Assembly: GCF_964340395.1 (NCBI RefSeq)
Contig: NC_135555.1
Location: 12,682,246 to 12,746,245 of the forward strand
Reading direction: 5' to 3'
Length of the DNA: 64,000 nt
Origin: Glandiceps talaboti
Lineage: Eukaryota > Hemichordata > Enteropneusta > Spengelidae
In this document: positions 1 through 60,517 of the stretch, in pieces
Layout: each line of letters begins with the position of its first letter
Numbering within the stretch: position 1 is the stretch's first letter
Made by a program: the position numbers and the translations under genes
Notes under the pieces: model-generated
Told to the model about the DNA's origin: nothing
The model's database searches: none
The model's input: only the letters and a program-made list of their open reading frames with translations

Positions 1-576
1 TAATCTTGTTAACAGACCTACTGTACATGTTACCCCGGCCGGGACTGTTACAATATCATGTCCCTGAAATGACGACTGGGAGATGTACGGAGTAGCAATA
101 TATGCTAGATCGAAAGAAACACTGCGGCGCCCATTCAACTAATACGCACGGTCTGTGGGGCAAAGTGTCTCGTGGAACGATCGCTTGACTGTCTGGGTTC
201 AATCGGCGTGAATTTTGATTCATCACCCAGCGTGGCGAAAGACTTTGAAAATATTTTCGCGATTTCACATTTACGAGATTCAGAATCATATGAATGGGTG
301 GCTCGAGCACGGACATGACGATCGTCAATATTAATCGATCGATTGACCATGATCATTTTCCAGGGTTTTCCAGGGGTAGGGCGCATTTTTCCAGGGTTTT
401 CCAGGGTTTTCCAGGGAGGGTTTGAAATTCCAGGGTTTTCCAGGACCGTGCGAACCCTGTTTTATAGTCTATATATGCTTTACTATATGCTTTACTATAG
501 GTGAGGCCTCCTTGCTCTATTTTGACACTCTAGCACTAGGTGAAATGCTATTGTAGGTACATGTAACAAGTCTTAC
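1..576. other. CENP-T intron sequence with a short tandem repeat
   Basis: This lies downstream of the last visible CENP-T exon on the minus strand and should be intron. At about 355-455 a roughly 14-bp motif (ttttccagggttttccagg) is repeated irregularly. No exon with matching phase was recognised here. Confidence 0.5.
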
Positions 577-1681
577 CTCCTCATCACTGTCTTCCTCAAT
601 CAACTCTTCCATCACCGCCTCCTCCTCCTCCTCCTCTTCCTCCTCCTCATCATCATCATTTTCATCAACACCTTTCTCTATGTTGTTGTCATTGATATAT
701 TCAGCTTTCTCAGCATCATCAACAGATGGAATGGGTTCACCATGAATTTCAGTGTCTGCTGGCATATCTGCATCTCCACTATGACTGTCAGTGTCTGCTG
801 GCATATCTGCATCATCTCCACTATGAATGTCAGTGTCTGCTGGCATATCTGCGTCATCTCCACTATGACTGTCAGTGTCTGCTGGCATATCTGCATCATC
901 TCCACTATGACTGTCAGTGTCTGCTGGCATATCTGCAACGTCATCGTCATGAATGTCAATGTCTGCTTTTGAAAGAGTGGAATCATGATGACCGTCAGTG
1001 TCTACTTGTGAAGGAATATTGTCATCATGAATGTCAGTGTCTTCTGGAGTCTCAGCCACTTCACCCTGAACATCGGTGTCTGCTGATGTCTCAGCCACTT
1101 CACCCTGAACATCGGTGTCTGCTGATGTCTCAGCCACTTCACCCTGAACATCGGTGTCTGCTGATGTCTCAGCCACTTCACCCTGAACATCGGTGTCTGC
1201 TGATGTCTCAGCCACTTCACCCTGAACATCGGTGTCTTCTGATGTCTCATCCACTTCACCCTGAACATCGGTGTCTTCTGATGTCTCAGCCACTTCACCC
1301 TGAACATCGGTGTCTGCTGATGTCTCATCCACTTCACCCTGAACATCGGTGTCTGCTGATGTCTCAGCCACTTCACCCTGAACATCGGTGTCTGCTGATG
1401 TCTCAGCCACTTCACCCTGAACATCGGTGTCTTCTGATGTCTCAGCCACTTCACCCTGAACATCGGTGTCTTCTTGTGTCTCAGGGACTACCCCATCGTT
1501 ATCACTGTCTGCTGGTGTTGGAGCAACTTCATCACTATCTGATACATCATGTGTGATAGTCTCTTTCACTATACGACCAAATGTACCTACAGACATTCTG
1601 TCCTTTCTTCTACGTGTAAACTTTGGAAGGTGATCTGGCCCTGCAGAATCATCCAGTTCATAATACCCAGGAGGTGAATGC
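577..1681 (-). CDS. CENPT: CENP-T exon with expanded 13-residue acidic repeat
   Basis: This 1105-nt exon opens with the second basic RRRKDRMSVGTFG motif. It then encodes about eleven near-identical 13-residue units of the form VAETSADTDVQGE, a degenerate stretch, and about five units of the form DADMPADTDSHSG. A run of glutamates and aspartates and the donor at 571-576 follow. Unit length at DNA level is 39 bp, so slippage or unequal exchange keeps frame. Every unit contains Ser or Thr within acidic context. The antisense frame is also open across the array because the repeat lacks stops; that is a by-product. Confidence 0.75.
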
Positions 1682-4600
1682 CTGCATGAATAATTCACAG
1701 TTCTAAGAGATTAATGTTTAAAATATTTACCTAGATAAGTAACATTAGTTTTAAAATGTGTCTCCACATTTACAGTACTACAACACTGACAGACATTGTG
1801 GAAGTTGTACTAAAATTTAGAGATGATATACAGTAATTATACATTTATTGCCTGGTAATGCAGGCACTAGTAGACATCCATTACCACAAAGGTTGTTATG
1901 CAGAATTAACTGAGGCAGAAAGCTGAGGGAAATTAGTTGCTACATAACAGCATGAGAGGTAACAAGACATCTACTAGTGCCCAAATAAGGCAAGGTAATA
2001 AGTGATTTATAACACATCACATTCTCTGGAAAGTATTCTTTCTAGAGTCAAAGTAAATCATGGGTAGATAGAATTCCTGTGCTATAATAGTGCTCTAGAG
2101 AAAATAGAAAAGGAATATCACCCGCTGTATGCAAATTGAGGTCACTATGTATGGGTCAATAGTCTATACCATGTGATACAATCTAAGCCAATCAATAATG
2201 GTTATGTGAAAATAATGTATTTTAACAGCATTTAATGCCCTGGCAACCTAATCAAGGAAAGGCAGACCACCCATTGTCTGTTTGCTCCTTTGCACTTATT
2301 CATGTTTCGCAATATTGCATTTATGAAGTTATAATTACATTACCCTCCAATGTTTTCATCATTCAGCCTAAACATACTTATGACATATCATTAAGTATTT
2401 TGTCACTACTGGTCTTGGATGGAACGACAAGGCCTGTTAGGTCACTCATACTTTCCTTGGCTGAGTGAAGACATTTTTGGGGGGAACAATAACTTTAATA
2501 TTCAGTTGATATTCACCTGATTGCATTCTGTGTTCTAGTTTTCACACCACTGGCTGCTGTCACATCAACTTGTGTGTCGTCATCATCCTCGTCATCTATC
2601 ATCTTTTCTTGGACAACTTTCCCAAATGTTCCCACAGACATTCTCTGTTCTTTTCGTCGCTTGAACTTAGGGGGTTCTCTTGTGTCAAAAGAGTCATTAT
2701 CTTGATCAGAATTGACAGTTTCTCTGCATGAAATAATATGAAAACATTGAACGGCTGTTTTGCATGACACTGCTAGACTTGTTACAATAGCAAACATATT
2801 GATGGCGAGATTTAAATGTTTTATGAATTTCTACAACCCCTAACATTGAAGTAAAGCACTTTTGTATGCATCACTCATTTATGGGTGTTTGTATCAAATG
2901 TAAAAGTATATGCTTTCAATAGGGAACTTGCAAACCTGCCATGTTGAATGTTGCATTATGGGAAATGTGACGATAAATACTAATTGATTAGTATTGTAAA
3001 CAATGTTGATACATTGTTTGTAACCACAAATAATCAATTCATAGTTACCCTGACCATTGTGGGAGGTTTATTTTATCAGTAGCTCCAGATTAGGTACATG
3101 TATTACGATAACCACAGATAATCCCATAGTCCTTTGCGTCTGAGCATGCTCAGTCTGGATTGCAAGTTCCCTATTGCTTTCATATCATAAACCTGGTTTG
3201 TGGCCTTACCAACATACCAGTAGTCATGTTATAAACAGTATTTTCTGGTAATGAACAGCCAACTGATTACAGTGAAGGATGTCATGTGACTATATTTAGC
3301 TCTCAATCTAGATCTAGACAATGTTTTACATTTTAGCAATTGACTGTTTACTTCCTTTGCACTGCTAAGATTGTTTACAGATTTTATTACACTGGGAGAC
3401 ACCCCATACTGGGCTATAATTGAAATAGTATACCTTTACCATTGATATGGATGCATTTAAATATTATGGAAAATCAAGTAAATGTTTTACTTGAGTGTTA
3501 TGAGTAACAGAGTTGTATTTTATTCATGAAGTGTCAACAAATCTTGCTGACTCCTGTTATCTGCCATGTTGCCATGAAAATGACACTCGGTAAGGTATGG
3601 AATGGTGAAATAAATGTCACCATTTCATAGCTAACTCTTTACAGCAAACTCTAAAAAAAACATTGCTGAGCCCTGTCACACCAATTAGGGGCATGATACT
3701 CACTAATTTTGTGCAATATTTCTATTAACATACATGTAAAACATCAAGGGCTTTCACTTTATCAGGGAATACTGAACCGATCCCTGATACATCACAGGGT
3801 ATAGTACATATAAACAATAACTATTATCATATACACAGAATCTATTCCAATGCAATGCAATGGAGAGCACGCACATTGAACCGGGGCAATAATTTTCTGT
3901 ATCACAGCCCGGCACACTTTGCCCAAATATGGCAAGTGGCACTCTCATCGATATCCATTCGCTCAGTGGTTTGGCTTTGTTAATTTCTTCACTATTGTTA
4001 CGTTTCTGAGAATAAAATAATATTTCAGTGCCAATTTATGTGATTGTGTCATTCAAATTATGTTTTCATGCAACTACATGTTGTATATGACAAAACTCGG
4101 TAGTACTGCATAAGGACCCTCCTAAAGTCGGGCCCTTCTGCCATACAACCTCAGTCTGCAAAACCCATATCCAGGCCATAAAGATTAACAGTACCTGACA
4201 GTATCCATCTGTGGAACATCTTTCGCAAGTTGTACATCTGGTAACTTTGGAGATGCCTTTCGTTTTCTTGGTATGTACACCGCAGGTGTTCCTGGTGGTG
4301 CTGAGAACAAAAAAAAATGACACACTTAAAGTCAGGTTAAAAATCAAAGTCCAAACCGGAACATAACCATACAACAACCAAATTCAAGTTTAATATGTTT
4401 GAAATATTTTTATAGCAAATTTTGGGGACATACTTGTCCATGCCATGTAAACTGTGAAAGCACAGATTTTCTCTCTACTTGAAATCACAGTAAAACGTCA
4501 ATTAGTGCACCTAATGATATTCCGAAACATCAAATGAGAAAAGGGCTTGGCTTTAATACACATAGTACCAATAACAGGCAAATATTAACAATAATCTTGT

Positions 4601-18004: not shown

Positions 18005-18939
18005 CTAGACATATTGAACACCACCATCTGTTATAAATAGTCTTTGTTGGTCCGATTCTTGCGACTGTAAGCAAATAGTAAATTCTGATGCAGAACGTTT
18101 CCACATAAAGTATCGCTTAGTGGATATTTTCTGCCAGATCCTGCTAATTGGGTCCACGTTAAGATGCCATGAGTTGACACTACCCCCGTTGTCATCTCGA
18201 TTTGGGGTATTATAATTGACAAGTGAGTTGGTTAGAAATGTTACAAGTTGATAGTCCTGGGTAACCTTCTGTAGAGTACTTGTCAAGTGTTGGAGTTTTG
18301 TCTCTCCATAATTATTGCGGTCCATCCAGTAAAAAGCACTAATACTGTCTACCATAACAACAGCAATGTTTGGTTTGTTGCCTAGCAACGTCTCCAACAT
18401 TTCTATAGTAACCAGGAGTTCAACTGTGTTGTGACAACGTTCGTAATGAAAATGTTGCAAGCACGACTTGATTAGCGTTTCTACATCATGGTTATTTGAT
18501 TGGTCTGTACTACCAGTCTGGTGGATGTAGCCCTCAACTTTGCTTTCGAGTATACTGACCAGTCGTAGAATGGAGAAATGACAATCATTGTCAATAAAGA
18601 GAACATCAACATCTCGACCTCTGCATGGAACACCTTGCCAGCTGTCAGGTAAGATACAATGTGCAATCCAATGCAGTAACATTTCAGTTTTGCCACATCC
18701 ACTCTCACCACACACCTCAATTATGTTTCCTGGTTTTAAGGACATGGTCTGAGTGAATAGCCTTGGGTCTATTCCATCCAAGTTTGGTCTGGTTCCCAAA
18801 CGAGCCAGTAACTAGAAAGATAAGGGGAACAAATGATATTTCATTTCGATTCAACAAAGGTCGTTAAATTTGTAACAAAATGTCACTAACAAATGTGTTC
18901 ATCTATCCACCCACCCATTCATCTACCCACCCATCAATG

Positions 18940-31310: not shown

Positions 31311-31524
31311 ATAAATAAAATAGATGAGTAATTGACATGTACAGTGTCTAATTATTGTATTCTAACAAATTTCAGTGAATATTGTATATCAAGATGTTTT
31401 GAAAAAATAACACCCCAGTTACAGTTAGTGCAGGTTTCAGACATATGTAATAATTAAAAATAAAGTCTTTGTAAAAAATAATTTTGTGTTTTTTTATTTT
31501 GTGTGGAAAAGAGACTGTAGAGAG

Positions 31525-31930
31525 GGCATGTATGTAATCACATAGAAGGTATGTATGTAGTCACAGAAGATATGTATGTAGTCACATAGAAGGTATGTAT
31601 GTAGTCACATAGAAGATATGTATCTAGTCACATAGAAGGTATGTATGTAGTCACATAGAAGGTATGTATGTAGTCACGTAGAAGGTATGTATCTAGTCAC
31701 AGAAGGTATGTATCTAGTCATATAGAAAGTATGTATGTAGTCACATAGAAGGTATGTATATAGTCACATAGAAGGTATGTATGTAGTCACATAGAAGGTA
31801 TGTATCTAGTCACAGAAGGTATGTATCTAGTCACATAGAAGGTATGTATCTAGTCACATAGAAGGTATGTATCTAGTCACATAGAAAGTATGTATGTAGT
31901 CACATAGAAGGTATGTATGTAGCCACATAA
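31525..31930 (+). repeat. ~23-bp minisatellite
   Basis: Units of the type gtatgtatgtagtcacatag plus aag are repeated about 18 times. Common variants are gtatctag for gtatgtag, and a shortened unit lacking 'tag' after tcaca. It lies just downstream of the HACL1 polyadenylation signals. Confidence 0.93.
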
Positions 31931-33898: not shown

Positions 33899-36800
33899 TC
33901 ATTGTAGCAGTATTGTGACTGGTTTTCCATCTTTTCCAATCTGTTTGACGCCGTGAGTTAAATCGTACTCTCGTCTAAGAAATGCATACATCAGATCCGT
34001 TATCAAAAACACCTGTAAGCAAAAGGAAACCAAATATTTGAATATCATGACCATAATGCAGCGCTCGCTATACAACATAATACTTAGTTTAAAAAATAAC
34101 AACTTTAAGATCAAATGATATGCATGTAACAGCTAACCTGTAATTACCTATAGAGGGAATGTGTGTGGTTCTCATTCAAACAGGTTAGTCACTATCATAC
34201 CAATGTACTCTACTTTGATTCAGTGTCGATGGTCAGATATCTGTATATAATTATTTGTTTTGTACATTTAATGTACACCATCCCAGTCAGTAGTGGCTAT
34301 CACAGAAGGAAAGCTAATGTTGAAGATGGGTGTTGTGTTTTTTGTTGGCGGAATGGAGTGTTTGCAAAGAGTGGTAACTTAGACTAATTACTGGTACACT
34401 TAAAACCATGGACCAATTATGGCAACTCTGGACCAATTACTTTGAGCAGTAGACATAGTTTTTTATTGATTGCCATTGGTCAACAGATTGGTATTCTAGA
34501 TACAATGTTTAGTAGTCTATGTGCCCTGCAGGCCTGGACTACTGCTAATCTCAAGACTGTAACAACATTGACTTACCTGTGCTGTTGTATAAACCAGAGT
34601 CATGGCAAAGAAAAAATTGGCATTAGCACTGCCAGCAAAGATCCATAGATGCCATACAACAAAAGCAAGTATTGATGATACCACATACATAACACCAACT
34701 ACCAAACTATTCTTTAAATCTGAAAAGAAGACAGACAAATTATTTACAACTCTAGTTGGTTGAAGGTGTAGCCATTTTATGATATTTTGTCATGGCAAGT
34801 TCAAGGTCAAAGGTCAGCCTATTGTTTTCTATTCCATTGAATTTGGCTTTGACTGTATGATTGCCTGCTTGTTAGTGCCAAAGTTGATGTTATAAAATTA
34901 CACTGGGCTAGGCTGTTTAACTGCAGAAAGCTGGGGTGAGTTCAGGATAAAAACAGTTTGTGATCTGTTAGCTTAATTGTCCATGGCACTGATCTGTAAC
35001 TATGCTATGGACAAGACTAGGTGCAGTAACACATCCAGTGATGCAGACAGGCTAGCTAACGGATCACTAACCATTTTTATCCTGAACATATCAGATTATG
35101 GTAGATTAAGCTGGTTTTAACATTTTACGTGTATTGCACTGGTAGTTTTGACTCAGTTAGGATGTAACAATTAAATATAGTAAACTGATGAGGCTAGAAT
35201 TATGTTTCAGAAGGGTGGGTTAGGCTGTAAAACATGTAGTTAATTTACATGTAATTAGTTAGGTTGAAAATGTCAGGTTATAGCTGTATAGTCTGTTTTA
35301 GTGTAGAGAATTGGTCTGGTTAATTATGATAGATACACATAGGTTATACTTACAAATACAGGTATGTGACCAGACAGGTAACAATGCTAAATACACATAG
35401 GTTATACTTACACATATAGGTATGTGACCAGACAGGTAATAATGCTAAATACACATAGGTTATACTTACACATATAGGTATGTGACCAGACAGGTAACAA
35501 TGCTAAATACACATAGGTTATACTTACACATATAGGTATGTGACCAGACAGGTAACAATGCTAGATACACATAGGTTATACTTACACATATAGGTATGTG
35601 ACCAGACAGGTAACAATGCTAAATACACATAGGTTATACTTACACATATAGGTATGTGACCAGACAGGTAACAATGCTAAATACACATAGGTTATACTTA
35701 CACATATAGGTATGTGACCAGACAGGTAACAATGCTAGATATACATAGGTTATACTTACACATATATGTATGTGACCAGACAGGTAACAATGCTAAATAC
35801 ACATAGGTTATACTTACACATACAGGTATGAGACCAGACAGGTAACAATGCTAGATACACATAGGTTATACTTACAAATATAGGTATGTGACCAGACAGG
35901 TAACAATGCTAGATACACCCAGGTTATACTTACACATATAGGTATGCGACCAGACAGGTGACAATGCTAGATACACATAGGTTATACTTACACATATAGG
36001 TATGTGACCAGACAGGTGACAATGCTAGATACACATAGGTTATACTTACAAATGTAGGTATGTGACCTGACAGGTAACAATGCTAAATACACATAGGTTA
36101 TACTTACACATATAGGTATGTGACCAGACAGGTAACAATGCTAGATACACATAGGTTATACTTACACATATATGTATGTGACCAGACAGGTAACAATGCT
36201 AGATACACATAGGTTATACTTACACATATAGGTATGTGACCAGACAGGTAACAATGCTAAATACACATAGGTTATACTTACACATATAGGTATGTGACCA
36301 GACAGGTAACAATGCTAGATACACATAGGTTATACTTACACATATAGGTATGTGACCAGACAGGTAACAATGCTAAATACACATAGGTTATACTTACACA
36401 TATAGGTATGTGACCAGACAGGTAACAATGCTAGATACACATAGGTTATACTTACACATATAGGTATGTGACCAGACAGGTAACAATGCTAAATACACAT
36501 AGGTTATACTTACACATATAGGTATGTGACCAGACAGGTAACAATGCTAGATACACATAGGTTATACTTACACATATAGGTATGTGACCAGACAGGTAAC
36601 AATGCTAAATACACATAGGTTATACTTACACATATAGGTATGTGACCAGACAGGTAACAATGCTAAATACACATAGGTTATACTTACACATATAGGTATG
36701 TGACCAGACAGGTAACAATGCTAAATACACCACTGCATCCCCAAATGATGGATAGGATTTGAATATAGCAATCAAGGCACATTGGATATACATAATCATG

Positions 36801-39800
36801 AATGGATGGTCCCTGAAAAGAGAAATACAGGGCTTGCGTCAAGAACTTTACCGCGTAACAATACATGAGGCTGCAGTAGTACTACTGCCTTATTATTGAA
36901 GTTTTCAAATACTACACGCATCAAATATACTCTCCCTCGAATTTTTTCATATTCAGCATGTTGGGTCCTAGTCTGTCTGGTACACCATGACAGGGTTCTT
37001 GAAAGAGGTTAGCCAATGCATGAGGGCACCCTGTCACAGCATACCTTACAAGCCAAAATTAAACAATCAAAACCAGTCTGTGTGTTGCCTCTGTCATAAC
37101 TGCCATAGTAAGATTTCACATAGTTTACAAGTTGTTTATTGGTATCAGTCACATAGGAATGTATCATACTAGGTTCTTATCCACTATGATTTCCTCTTTT
37201 TGCAGTTTGATTAATTTTCATTGTACATGCTGTCATCACTACCTGGTTCTCTAATTACTGACAGGTCCATGTCTTTCATTCCTAGTTAGTACTTATTTGT
37301 AGTAAGGTCCCTAATGCACAAATTCTCAAGTGATTGGTGGTTATTACCATGTTTGCTTGACTGCCACGTAACCATGCCAACATAATTTGAAGGATACCGA
37401 CAGCCTTCCCTACCAAGGAGTACATGACATTACTTGAAAGAAGCAACTAAATAAAACCGTGGGTGCAGTCAAAGTCCTTATATCATTAGAAACAAGCTAG
37501 AGAAGGGATAATGATTAATTTTATGCACTACCACTCACTATTAATATTATAGTATTAATCTAACCAACAGAGGACCTGTCTTTCATTAACCCACTTACCT
37601 GAGTTTTATTACTAGGGGTATTGTGTAGATGAAGGCATTGATTTGAAAGACCAGGATAAAAAAGATACGAAAGTGTTCAAACATCTCAGTGAAGAAGTAC
37701 CAAAACAATCCCATGTTGGGTCTGAGGTTGGGTACGGATAATCTGTAAGAAACACAGAATATGTAGATTATATGAACATAGTTATACATAGAAACATAAT
37801 ATGGAGTCTCTGTGTACTCAATTTGTCATGTTCAAGTAAAAAATTTAGCTTTTGTGAAAAATAGTAAAATAATAAATAACTACCAAAAAACTGCTCACAA
37901 AAGATCTGTGCAAATGCCCACCATATCATATGATGTGTGCCACATTTAGTTGAAATTGACTTGGAGGTGTCAGCGATCTGGCAAACAATTTTATTTTTGG
38001 GGGGGCCTTATAACATGATCACTTTCTATAAAAGAAATCTGAGCTAACCATTAATCATCATACTTACATAAAGCCATAGGTAGAATACAAGAAGTCAAAG
38101 GATGAAAACATCAGATACGATAGCAACAGTAACCATACCAACCACACAAAATAAACACACAAAGTTTTCCCCATAGAAACGACTGCTTTCTTACTGGTGT
38201 AGTCAAAATCAACCTTGTTTTTCTGAAAATAAACAAAAGTATAATGTTTTTAGAAATATGACGCAAAGTGAAGCTGCTTTTTGTGAAGCTATGTTTGTTA
38301 CAATAGATGAAATATTTACATGTAATAGTTACTCAACATCTTGTTCAAAAAAATATATCTGATACACTTCAGTTTCATACGTTAAAATTTGATAAGGGTA
38401 CAAACAAAAGGAATGCAAATCCCATTGCCATAGGTCCCTGGAAAGGTGTGTTTTTCTTTGTTCTCGCAAGGCATGAGAAAGGGCACACTTCTTTGGCTGG
38501 AAGACTTTAGAAACACCTGCCAAACTGGAATGGTAGATTTCGTTCCAATTTTAGTTCAGAATAAATCTATAATTTTCAAAATAATTCTTGCAACTGTTCA
38601 AAGTAAGATTCCATTTTCCAAAAACAATTATTTTGATCAGGTTTTAGCTATTTCTTCAAATGAACTGTCATTTGCATGTATCATCGACTCTATTTTGTGC
38701 AATACAGTTGGTATGAGAAAGGGTCTCCTTTTTGGGGTGTGTGGTATGAAAACAGCTTGGGTTTGGAGGTCTCAGCAGAGCCTCTCCATATCATTTCACT
38801 TAGAGTTGCCCCCTCCCAGGATATATATAACAATAACTTAAAACCATCAACTCACCTGTGCTATAAACATTGTACATGGAACTATCAACATGGCAGGGTA
38901 GAAGGACTGATATGTTGCTATGGCAATGGCTAACGTTGAAATGGCTCTGTGACCTGAAATTGAAATCAATTTAATGATCACATCTTACAAAGGTACGACA
39001 TGCTTCTGAATGGAACATCAAGGTATTGCCAAGAGTTTTCAAGTCATTTTCGTAAGTTTTACAACTACAGTCTTCAGCGTACATGTAACAAACATATTGT
39101 CATTTGGATTGTCACAAAGGAAGGTCAACTTGTGAAACATCGACAAAATTTAAACATTCTACACTTCATCATTTCAATAATCTCATTTCCAAGGAATCTC
39201 TCACAGTATCCCAGTAATTCACATCTTTCAAACATTTTCCAGGAGTGGTTTCTGGAATTTGAGGATTGACAAGGATTTATTCGGAGTTCTTGAATTCTTT
39301 CATGCCCTTACCTTTCAGTGTATACAGAATTCCTATGACCACAGCAAGGTTGTTGAGTAAGATAGTTGACTTGGCTACACATGTTGCTATAGTGTAAGGA
39401 TTTAATAAATATCTGGAAAATAGAGTAAAAATATGTTTACTTTAGTTTACCAAAAGAGAAACTCATAATTAATGCTGCCAATGGCTACAGAAGATATGAA
39501 TTTGAAATCAACTAGGCAGTATAGTGGGCCACTTATAGTAATTTATATTAATGGAAGCGTGCTCCAGTTATGGTTGTTGTAGTTTTCAAAATTCAATCTC
39601 TGCAGAATTGCGTTTTCTTTTCCTAGATAAAATCATAAATTAGGCAGGCTTTTGATCTTTGAAATATGTACATGTGTAATAACTATTGATGTAATCAACT
39701 GACAACAAACATGTACCTTATGTAACTTTCAACCCTTCCCTTCCCACTTGCACTCTAATGATAGCCAAATTTTGTTGTTGTTGAGTCAAAATGCTAAAAG

Positions 39801-42044
39801 CTGACATTTCTTGTGAGTCGGCACATAGTAAGAGTTATGGGAACACAATATTTTGGTGCGTCACTTGAAATTGTGTTTGTCAGAGGCACATCAAATTGGC
39901 TTAGAGGGCACACTGCTTCCAAGAGATCAATTTTCAATATCGGTCTATATTCAAATGCATGGTTCTGAATAGGCCTTTCCAAAATTTGCCACATGGTGGC
40001 GCTCTACTTCCTGTCTGTGTGTACCTTGGGGGTATACATGCTATAGGTTACTTGGTTAATCAAAGAACACTGCTGCTTTCCTCGATGTCTGAACAATATG
40101 AAAAACATCCCCGATTTACACTTCTACAGAATACATAGAACAAAGCTCTTAGGAAACGGTACTATGAGGTGATGATATCTGAGTGAGGGCGCTGTATTCT
40201 CAATTTCCTGTTTGCAGTCTGCATACTCTATTTACTGATACGTGCACAGTCAAAACATGTTTAATTTATGGAGACTGTATTGTTCTTGTTTTCAAGAATC
40301 AATAGACAGTCAAATACAGTTACTTTGGAATGGTAAGATAGAAACGAATGTGTCATCAAGGTATAGAGGATAGCAACATCACATTCGTTTCTAATTTACC
40401 ATTTCAAAGTAACTATATTTTAATACTGGCCTATACTTCATTTACTTACAGAGCTGCAACTTGATCTGGGAGTTCTCGGACGTTCACTAACTTGATTAAT
40501 ATACTGTCAATATCTTTAGCAAATTTCTTCCTCATTTGAACTTGTCTATCAATCTATGTGAAACAAATACAATATAGGTGCAATCAACATACACAGCTGT
40601 ATATTCAAGTCAATACAGAATGTAGCACAGGGTGGAATGGAACCTCTATCTAGTCACTAAAGTCATCACACAACAAGATAGTATGGAACCCACTGTCATA
40701 AAACCACAGGCCTCTTTACACTGCTGTCCATGAGACACTGCTGATGTGTCTGCTGAAAATATGATTTACAGCTGAAGAGGATGAATAAATGACCTACTAT
40801 ATGGAAAGGTCAAATGACCTTCTAAATGGTAAGGTCAAATGAAAATCTACATGGTAAGGTCAAATGACCTTCTAAATGGTAAGGTCAAATGAAAATCTAC
40901 ATGGTAAGGTCAAATGACCTACATGGTAAGGGTAAATGACATTCTATGTATAATGTAGCAAGTATGGGCACATGCCCTTCTTGGTGGCAAGAAAGAGCAT
41001 ATGACCTCCTACAAGGTAAGTGCAAATGACCTGTACAGTTAATAACTTTACCATGAGTCTTGAAGCAGAGTTGACAATGTTCCTCAGTAACCAGGCAATG
41101 TAAAGATCCAGTAGAACAAAGATCATAGGAATCCAAGCTGATGATATAGACTTGATGTAATGGAAAATAAGAAGAATCAAGGGTGTCTGCAAAATAGAAT
41201 AAACCAATTACTCATCCGTAAATACAGAATTGGAATAAAAATACCTGGGGTAATAGCTTTATAACAATAAAAATTATCTTAGTTTTACTATACATAGCGT
41301 TTTCTCACACTGCACCTACAGCACTTTATGATTACTACCCTGGCACAGACCTAAAGTGACACAAATGCTCTTTATACTTTCTGAATACTTTAAGCCATGG
41401 ATAGTCTCTAGACTAGTACCATGCATGTTTACAATTTTGACTTTGGAATCATTGTGTTGTTATACTATGATGGATTAAGTTGTGTCATACCTCATGAAAG
41501 ACATCTCCAGAGTATGGAGATATACCACTTTCAAAGAGAGCTAAACCCTCTACAACTGTAAAGGAAAAATAGAAAGCTGGTTAGCATTCATTTGTACAAA
41601 TATATCCATGACAGTCATAAGTCATAACTTCATAAGTCTCGCACTGCAATGTAAATTGTAACAGTCGGACTGTCTACGGTAGCACAAATGCCACTAATGG
41701 GATGTCATAATATTGTAAGAAATCATCTTGATCTGCCATGTCCGTTACATACTGTACTCCATCACAGTTCAATTACCAGCTACAATGTCAGTCTCCAAGC
41801 CAATATTGTCAATATATACAGACTGTATCAATCATCAAAATGTGTCACACATTGTGTGCATGTCCAGAGTACAAAGTAGACCCGTGTGAAGGAATGCTTA
41901 GAAGTGTTACCAACCTCCATCCCAGCTTGTAATTGGTGTTATAATCTCGACCCTGTTGGCTAACCAGTCTGCGATCGACGACTTAAAGAGGAGAAAACGC
42001 ACTGATACTGCGAGCAGTCCAATCACAAGTATGGGCGCCGCCAT
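33899..42044 (-). CDS. PIGU: GPI transamidase subunit PIG-U
   Basis: PIG-U is a polytopic ER-membrane subunit of the GPI transamidase (with PIGK, PIGT, PIGS and GPAA1) that attaches GPI anchors to proteins. Eleven phase-consistent exons give 437 residues (human 435): 41915-42044, 41491-41555, 41052-41186, 40450-40553, 39312-39412, 38856-38953, 38068-38222, 37599-37742, 36688-36812, 34577-34719 and 33899-34012. Diagnostic blocks are MAAPILV at the start, [51 protein letters not shown] followed by [36 protein letters not shown] and [14 protein letters not shown]. Most exons encode hydrophobic helices. The ATG at 42042-42044 matches the human start. Odd feature: exon 9 and its donor have been amplified into the following intron. 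Confidence 0.97.
35328..36728 (-). repeat. 58-bp minisatellite made of PIGU exon 9 end plus 5' splice site
   Basis: About 24 copies of a 58-bp unit. On the minus strand each reads atttagcattgttacctgtc, then tggtcacatacctatatgt, then gtaagtataacctatgtgt. The right-most unit is the genuine end of PIGU exon 9 with its donor (gt at 36687-36686). Every further copy keeps gtaagt. Variants are mostly single substitutions, so the array looks young. Its presence in the gene's intron was checked by the phase match of exon 9 to exon 10. Confidence 0.95.
37000..37060 (+). repeat. Dispersed repeat family (ggggttgaccgatgtgtgag), diverged copy 4
   Basis: agaggttagccaatgcatga followed by gggcaccctgtcacagcatacctta matches copy 1 with several changes. 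It is in PIGU intron 8. Confidence 0.45.
39993..40222 (+). repeat. ~230-bp dispersed repeat, copy 1
   Basis: The segment from ggcgctctacttcctgt to atttcctgtttgcag recurs in reverse complement at about 60976-61172. Shared blocks include tgtctgaacaatatgaaaaa and gtttacacttctacagaat-type sequence. It is in PIGU intron 4. Confidence 0.65.
40790..40960. repeat. ~25-bp tandem repeat rich in AGGTCA/TGACCT half-sites
   Basis: Alternating units with aaatgaccttctaaatggta and aaatgaaaatctacatggta, joined by aggtc. Three units hold the palindrome aggtcaaatgacct, an inverted pair of nuclear-receptor half-sites with a 2-bp spacer. It is in PIGU intron 3. Regulatory function is unproven. Confidence 0.75.

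Positions 42045-44435: not shown

Positions 44436-60517
<16,082 letters not shown>

Follow-up and report, generated by a model that had tools for sequence, protein, structure and literature searches.

In the PIGU gene of the hemichordate Glandiceps talaboti, the end of coding exon 9 and its 5' splice site (donor) are repeated in tandem, forming a minisatellite of 24 full 58-bp units that runs on into intron 9 and carries GTAAGT in every unit. The array lies within a window of 64,000 nucleotides of contig NC_135555.1, to which all positions given here refer. Our favored reading, to which we assign a probability of roughly 0.8, is that the array is a passive minisatellite: the first donor (donor 1) would be chosen by its proximity on the exon side, with some leak from the second (donor 2). 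A minisatellite that spans a splice donor is of a kind already known from human genes.

The PIGU coding region (33899..42044; minus strand, as are all PIGU features described) was joined from 11 exons and encodes 437 amino acids, identical at 437/437 positions to an NCBI protein of the species (P0001). This entry is named 'GPI-anchor transamidase component PIGU-like [Glandiceps talaboti]' (GPI, glycosylphosphatidylinositol), a name without an isoform label. The next closest protein among the best 120 of 710 matches was PIGU of Ptychodera flava (82%). For the Pfam profile PF06728, exons 8, 9 and 10 each have an open frame that scored above cut-off and exons 1 and 7 one that scored below it, while the open frame of exon 11 had no match to this profile. 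Membership in the PIGU family is thus indicated by both the PF06728 match and homology over the full length. Coding exon 9 (36688..36812; 125 nt), placed by the identity of the joined coding sequence (CDS) with the NCBI protein, ends ...ACC TAT ATG T. Exon joining placed exon 10 at 34577..34719 (143 nt), with the acceptor CTTCTTTTCAG, which has a pyrimidine fraction of 0.88, and the donor CAG|gtaagt. These positions of the exon 9 end (36688) and the exon 10 start (34719) agree with those of a first-pass annotation made from the sequence, and an end of exon 9 elsewhere is contradicted by the NCBI protein, which uses the first donor.

From these boundaries, intron 9 (34720..36687) has a computed length of 1968 nt, or 634 nt when the 23 extra units are subtracted. 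The shorter length fits the size range of the neighboring introns: the nine introns other than intron 9 span 304-1037 nt (intron 8, 786 nt; intron 4, 1037 nt), and the PIGU exons span 65-155 nt. An alignment of 12 PIGU proteins from the 120 listed matches contained no insertion at the exon 9/10 point. Downstream of the array, intron 9 also contains a 34-nt inverted repeat (34940-35087) with 88% complementary arms 80 nt apart.

Tandem Repeats Finder reported a 58-bp period with 24.2 copies and 96% matches at 35326-36730. On the coding strand the unit reads GTGTATTTAGCATTGTTACCTGTCTGGTCACATACCTATATGT|GTAAGTATAACCTAT, that is, the 43-nt end of exon 9 followed by 15 nt from the start of intron 9. 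Unit 1 occupies 36730-36673, and the 24 full units (35339..36730, minus strand) are followed by a partial 25th copy of 13 nt (35326..35338, minus strand), GTGTATCTATCAT, which shares the unit start and at which the array passes to unique intron sequence. The array adds 1334 nt, all within the intron. The first-pass annotation had correctly recognized the gene, the exon, the amplified donor and the composition of the unit from exon end, donor and intron. Its larger intron share differs from the 15 nt obtained with the cut at 36730, and was possible only because the 13-nt partial copy blurs the edge of the array. Its statement that every copy keeps the donor was borne out by a motif count: GTAAGT occurs 24 times on the minus strand in exact 58-nt steps, from 36687 down to 35353. 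Note that one of these is the authentic donor, leaving 23 extra sites rather than the proposed 24 decoys.

This ladder of GTAAGT motifs in intron 9 exceeds chance. Internal GTAAGT occurs 23 times in intron 9, compared with 0 in the other nine PIGU introns. The pattern was matched with at most 3 mismatches by 23 of the 24 full units, with 0 expected in 100 shuffles; the exception (35919-35976) departs from the consensus at 5 positions. As a control we used the other arrays of the window, taking the 25 Tandem Repeats Finder rows with a period of at least 10 and dropping 8 that overlapped. GTRAGT was present in the consensus of 2 of the remaining 17, namely the PIGU array and an array at 59407-59496. 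The PIGU array runs on from the authentic donor of exon 9 and contains the donor in 24/24 units, as is characteristic of a donor-spanning minisatellite.

To determine the coding outcomes, each of the 24 donors was joined in silico to exon 10 and the product translated. Donor 1 (36682..36687) is the sole one whose product equals the NCBI protein. Donor 2 (36624..36629) adds 58 nt and shifts the frame, yielding a product of 375 amino acids; its stop is a TAG (34709-34707) in the opening 13 nt of exon 10, with 130 nt left to the exon 10/11 junction. An in-frame TAA (36626..36628) that arises at the second unit is met by donors 3-24, the last of which lies at 35348..35353, and on full retention of the intron, giving 372 amino acids; for donors 3-24 this stop lies 197-1415 nt ahead of the exon 10/11 junction. 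Exon 9 would measure 125 nt with donor 1, 183 nt with donor 2 and 1459 nt with donor 24. The frameshift, the TAA and the truncation of all but the exon-proximal product had been anticipated in the first-pass annotation, and our computation returned a premature stop for 23/23 donors other than donor 1. A distance of 50-55 nt is the usual criterion for exon-junction-dependent decay. Because their stops satisfy this rule, the mRNAs of donors 2-24 should all be targets of decay where the cell has the exon-junction-dependent pathway. That donor 1 is the donor in use is indicated by the NCBI protein of the species, a model whose underlying evidence was not seen.

What could separate donor 1 from the rest? 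Between positions -43 and +79 (122 nt), donors 1 and 2 do not differ. The donor context in the array is TGT|guaagu (TTT in three units), and U1 pairing amounts to -7.3 kcal/mol for 24/24 donors, within a span of -5.3 to -13.2 for the ten real PIGU donors; by U1 pairing, the 24 donors thus show no difference in strength. Masking of the extra donors by RNA structure was likewise unsupported. All 11-nt donor sites were predicted to be poorly accessible (0.001-0.017 across the 24 donors at two settings; 0.001 at donor 1), and the 314-nt stretch comprising exon 9 and the units down to 36499 gave a fold of lower stability than shuffles (z +2.14), 99/100 of which folded at least as well.

The first-pass annotation had proposed the array as a natural test of donor choice. 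It may serve as such, but the outcome is not wholly open, since two-donor minigenes and ABCA7 point to the first donor (PMC9225289, PMC5954066; these and the other published systems are cited from excerpts of the papers). In the minigenes of Carranza 2022, an internal exon flanked by introns of 365 nt was given two identical CAG|guaagu donors at a distance of 52 nt, and splicing went exclusively to the upstream one (PMC9225289). The guaagu donors are identical as in PIGU, but two in number and artificial, whereas those of PIGU are 24 and natural. An older intron-side rule, by which the downstream donor wins, applies to short introns. PIGU introns 8 and 9 (786 and 1968 nt) are rather long and exceed those of the exon-definition minigenes (365 nt).

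The best-measured natural case is intron 18 of human ABCA7, which contains a variable number tandem repeat (VNTR) of 25 bp whose first two bases are the GT of the exon 18 donor (PMC5954066). The reference has 23.7 copies, and about 12 to 427 copies were found across 452 people (PMC5954066). Retention of one unit, which is out of frame, accounted for 2 ± 1% of mRNA, by our reading of the paper's 'respectively', and was independent of VNTR length (PMC5954066). Skipping of exon 19 climbed with VNTR length, with a 3.2-fold difference between the extreme cell lines (PMC5954066). As in ABCA7, the PIGU array starts at the authentic donor, and retention of one unit results in a frameshift and a premature stop (both unit lengths, 25 and 58, leave a remainder of 1 on division by 3). 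In contrast to PIGU, where the 58-bp unit includes 43 nt of coding exon, the 25-bp ABCA7 unit is C-rich, begins at the GT and contains no exon sequence. Length polymorphism and RNA have been measured for ABCA7 in human, whereas the PIGU array is known from the sequence of one assembly. Passive behavior of the PIGU array is most likely because one-unit retention in ABCA7 is low and independent of length and because the minigenes used the upstream donor only. By analogy, dominance of donor 1 would be expected in PIGU.

A plausible history and mechanism can be outlined as follows. The minisatellite happens to start inside coding exon 9. The first 58-bp duplication across the boundary was probably seeded by a short repeat, GTGTATYTANCAT, that occurs in exon 9 as well as in the intron, and the 13-nt partial copy is its likely seed. 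Slippage or unequal exchange may then have enlarged the array to 24 copies and kept them alike. During splicing, the spliceosome would act by exon definition, pairing donor 1 with the 3' splice site at the other end of exon 9, which at 125 nt is of normal length, and donors 2-24 would mostly be passed over despite their near identity. Leak from donor 2, and less from later donors, would generate stop-containing mRNAs that are probably cleared by nonsense-mediated decay. The array would thus be nearly neutral, and any effect of its length would more likely be exerted via exon 10 than via donor slippage.

Several observations weigh against this reading. Because donor 1 is equal to the other donors in U1 pairing and not more accessible, position alone can favor it. 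The CAG|guaagu donors of the minigenes are stronger than the TGT|guaagu donors of PIGU. Among human donors of near-equal strength, the upstream one was preferred in about 60% of cases, and when donors were not filtered by strength, the downstream site was favored in about 60% (PMC9225289). In ABCA7, a block of decay substantially raised the stop-containing transcripts (PMC5954066); as the figure of 2% counts surviving mRNA, the second donor is in truth used more often. In IFI6, a minisatellite contains several donors, and the use of two downstream units gives rise to three mRNAs (Turri 1995, as cited in PMC4526556). The units of IFI6 carry splice donors as do those of PIGU. The IFI6 products are described as isoforms, while the 23 alternatives of PIGU all give stops. 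Finally, of the 11 variants in the exon part of the PIGU units, 7 are synonymous when read in the frame of exon 9, compared with 2.4-3.1 expected (P 0.003-0.016 depending on transition weight; post hoc, with small numbers). The other two frames were without excess, with 2/10 synonymous variants each. The synonymous excess weighs against a passive array because plain neutrality does not predict it.

The variants also bear on how the array evolved. Units carry 0-5 differences from the consensus, with 13 distinct variants in 28 cells. Variant T7C alternates through units 3-10 (TCTCTCTC), as if a block of two units had been copied. The GTAAGT hexamer was hit by 0/13 variants, against about 1.3 expected at random (P = 0.24), and selection preserving the extra donors is therefore unsupported. 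Since the presence of the donor in every copy is the expected outcome of recent homogenization, it is not evidence of selection. Exchange with a coding copy was considered as the source of the synonymous excess. It predicts that the variants shared among units are the synonymous ones. Of the 11 exon-part variants, 5 are common to two or more units, and by hand count 2/5 of these shared variants are synonymous, compared with 5/6 of the single ones. With shared variants mostly non-synonymous, exchange is unsupported.

In the alternatives to a passive array, either array length affects expression, the array contributes to the protein, or the array is not real as assembled. The first-pass annotation had suggested a rheostat on GPI anchoring by donor slippage, in which more copies pull U1 from donor 1, so that longer alleles produce more stop-containing mRNA and less PIG-U. 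The shared GTAAGT and U1 pairing energy of the 24 donors, the identity of donors 1 and 2 from -43 to +79, the stop resulting from any misuse, and the service of downstream IFI6 units as donors (PMC4526556) are all compatible with such competition. However, one-unit retention in ABCA7 is flat across VNTR size (PMC5954066), the upstream donor was exclusive in the two-donor minigenes (PMC9225289), and the NCBI protein follows donor 1. The length independence in ABCA7 leaves tuning by slippage unsupported, and we regard it as improbable. As excerpted, this best-measured case argues against a rheostat driven by slippage and points to the next exon for any effect there may be. By analogy to ABCA7 exon 19, a long array might slow or weaken removal of intron 9 and cause skipping of exon 10, which we consider unlikely, though worth bearing in mind. 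The 3.2-fold rise in exon 19 skipping between the extreme cell lines (PMC5954066) provides the precedent, and the reading-frame outcome in PIGU can be computed: skipping of exon 10 yields a 364-amino-acid product with a stop 38 nt into the last exon. Because the stop lies in the last exon, this product would escape exon-junction-dependent decay. Against this route speak the pyrimidine-rich acceptor of exon 10 (0.88) and its CAG|gtaagt donor.

It is also conceivable that 33-nt pieces of the units (CATTG...TATGT) are spliced in as in-frame cassettes, each adding 11 residues and no stop. Every unit carries TATAAC and TATYTAG upstream of the exon part, the AG is unaltered in the 24 full units, the frame stays open when 1-4 copies are inserted, and the surplus of synonymous variants (7/11; P 0.003-0.016, post hoc) would be in line with coding use. 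However, open in-frame 33-mers are frequent by chance, and the acceptor is weak, with a pyrimidine fraction of 0.56 compared with 0.56-0.94 in the 10 real acceptors, below 9 of these. Moreover, 2 of the 7 synonymous variants fall outside the 33 nt, where cassette use sets no constraint (inside, 5/9 are synonymous), and the NCBI protein is without insert. We regard such microexons as extremely improbable, and it is just as hard to credit that cassettes inserted after residue 352 in some mRNAs turn the array into a generator of PIG-U variants that depends on allele length. Genome assemblies often get the size of tandem arrays wrong, and the array could accordingly be absent from the animal or wrong in copy number. 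This is very improbable, as the 13 distinct variants, some shared and one alternating, form the pattern of a real minisatellite, whereas false copying by software would tend towards identical units.

Two further systems were compared with the passive minisatellite we favor. In the tandem dual-specific splice sites of UBC, AGGT serves as both donor and acceptor and the coding units are in frame (PMC10809524). UBC and PIGU both place splice sites inside a tandem repeat; AGGT was not found on the sense (minus) strand of the PIGU consensus unit, which is thus not of the UBC kind. Intron gain by tandem duplication resembles PIGU in that the duplication crosses an exon-intron boundary. Unlike intron gain, PIGU lengthens an old intron and needs no new one. 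A new intron between copies was rejected, as the CDS identical to the NCBI protein uses no array junction beyond donor 1. SRSF1 and hnRNP A1 shift donor choice, a point of general relevance to donor selection only (PMC8724738, PMC5585400, as excerpted). Our literature searches found nothing on the Glandiceps genome, nor on intron gain with microhomology; they did not name PIGU, and we do not claim the array as unreported.

The array represents a natural, many-fold version of two-donor competition, located in a conserved gene and in a deuterostome outside the usual model species. Because donors 1 and 2 share 122 identical nt, a comparison of how often each is used would reflect little besides position. 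Near-exclusive use of donor 1 would make PIGU a natural example of cross-exon proximity, and any other outcome would make it a real exception. Use of later donors in RNA, or an effect of length, would raise its interest. PIGU also places the donor-spanning minisatellite of the ABCA7/IFI6 type in an invertebrate deuterostome (other animals were not surveyed).

Other repeats and genes were noted in the window. A 23-bp array of about 18 copies (31521-31929, plus strand) has AAGGTATGT in its consensus unit and lies between the 3' ends of PIGU and of a gene that we take to be HACL1-like, one exon of which matches TPP_enzyme_C below cut-off. The motif is donor-like on the plus strand and lies in no recognized intron. 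The 59407-59496 array (plus strand) has a 36-bp unit with GTAAGT in the consensus. A 397-amino-acid open frame (520-1710, minus strand) contains a coding minisatellite of 39 bp (13 amino acids; 1037-1484, 11.5 copies, 97%) and a second one of 42 bp (738-967); it had no Pfam match at 0.01. A 268-amino-acid open frame (18008-18811, minus strand), presumably XRCC2-like, matches Rad51 (PF08423, 2.9e-9). Vitellogenin-type lipoprotein frames extend over 44803-58015 (minus strand), with PF01347 above cut-off at 57644-58015 and below it at 51504-51737, a PF09172 match at 47697-48056 (minus strand) and a TSP1-like frame, below cut-off, at 44803-45027 (minus strand).

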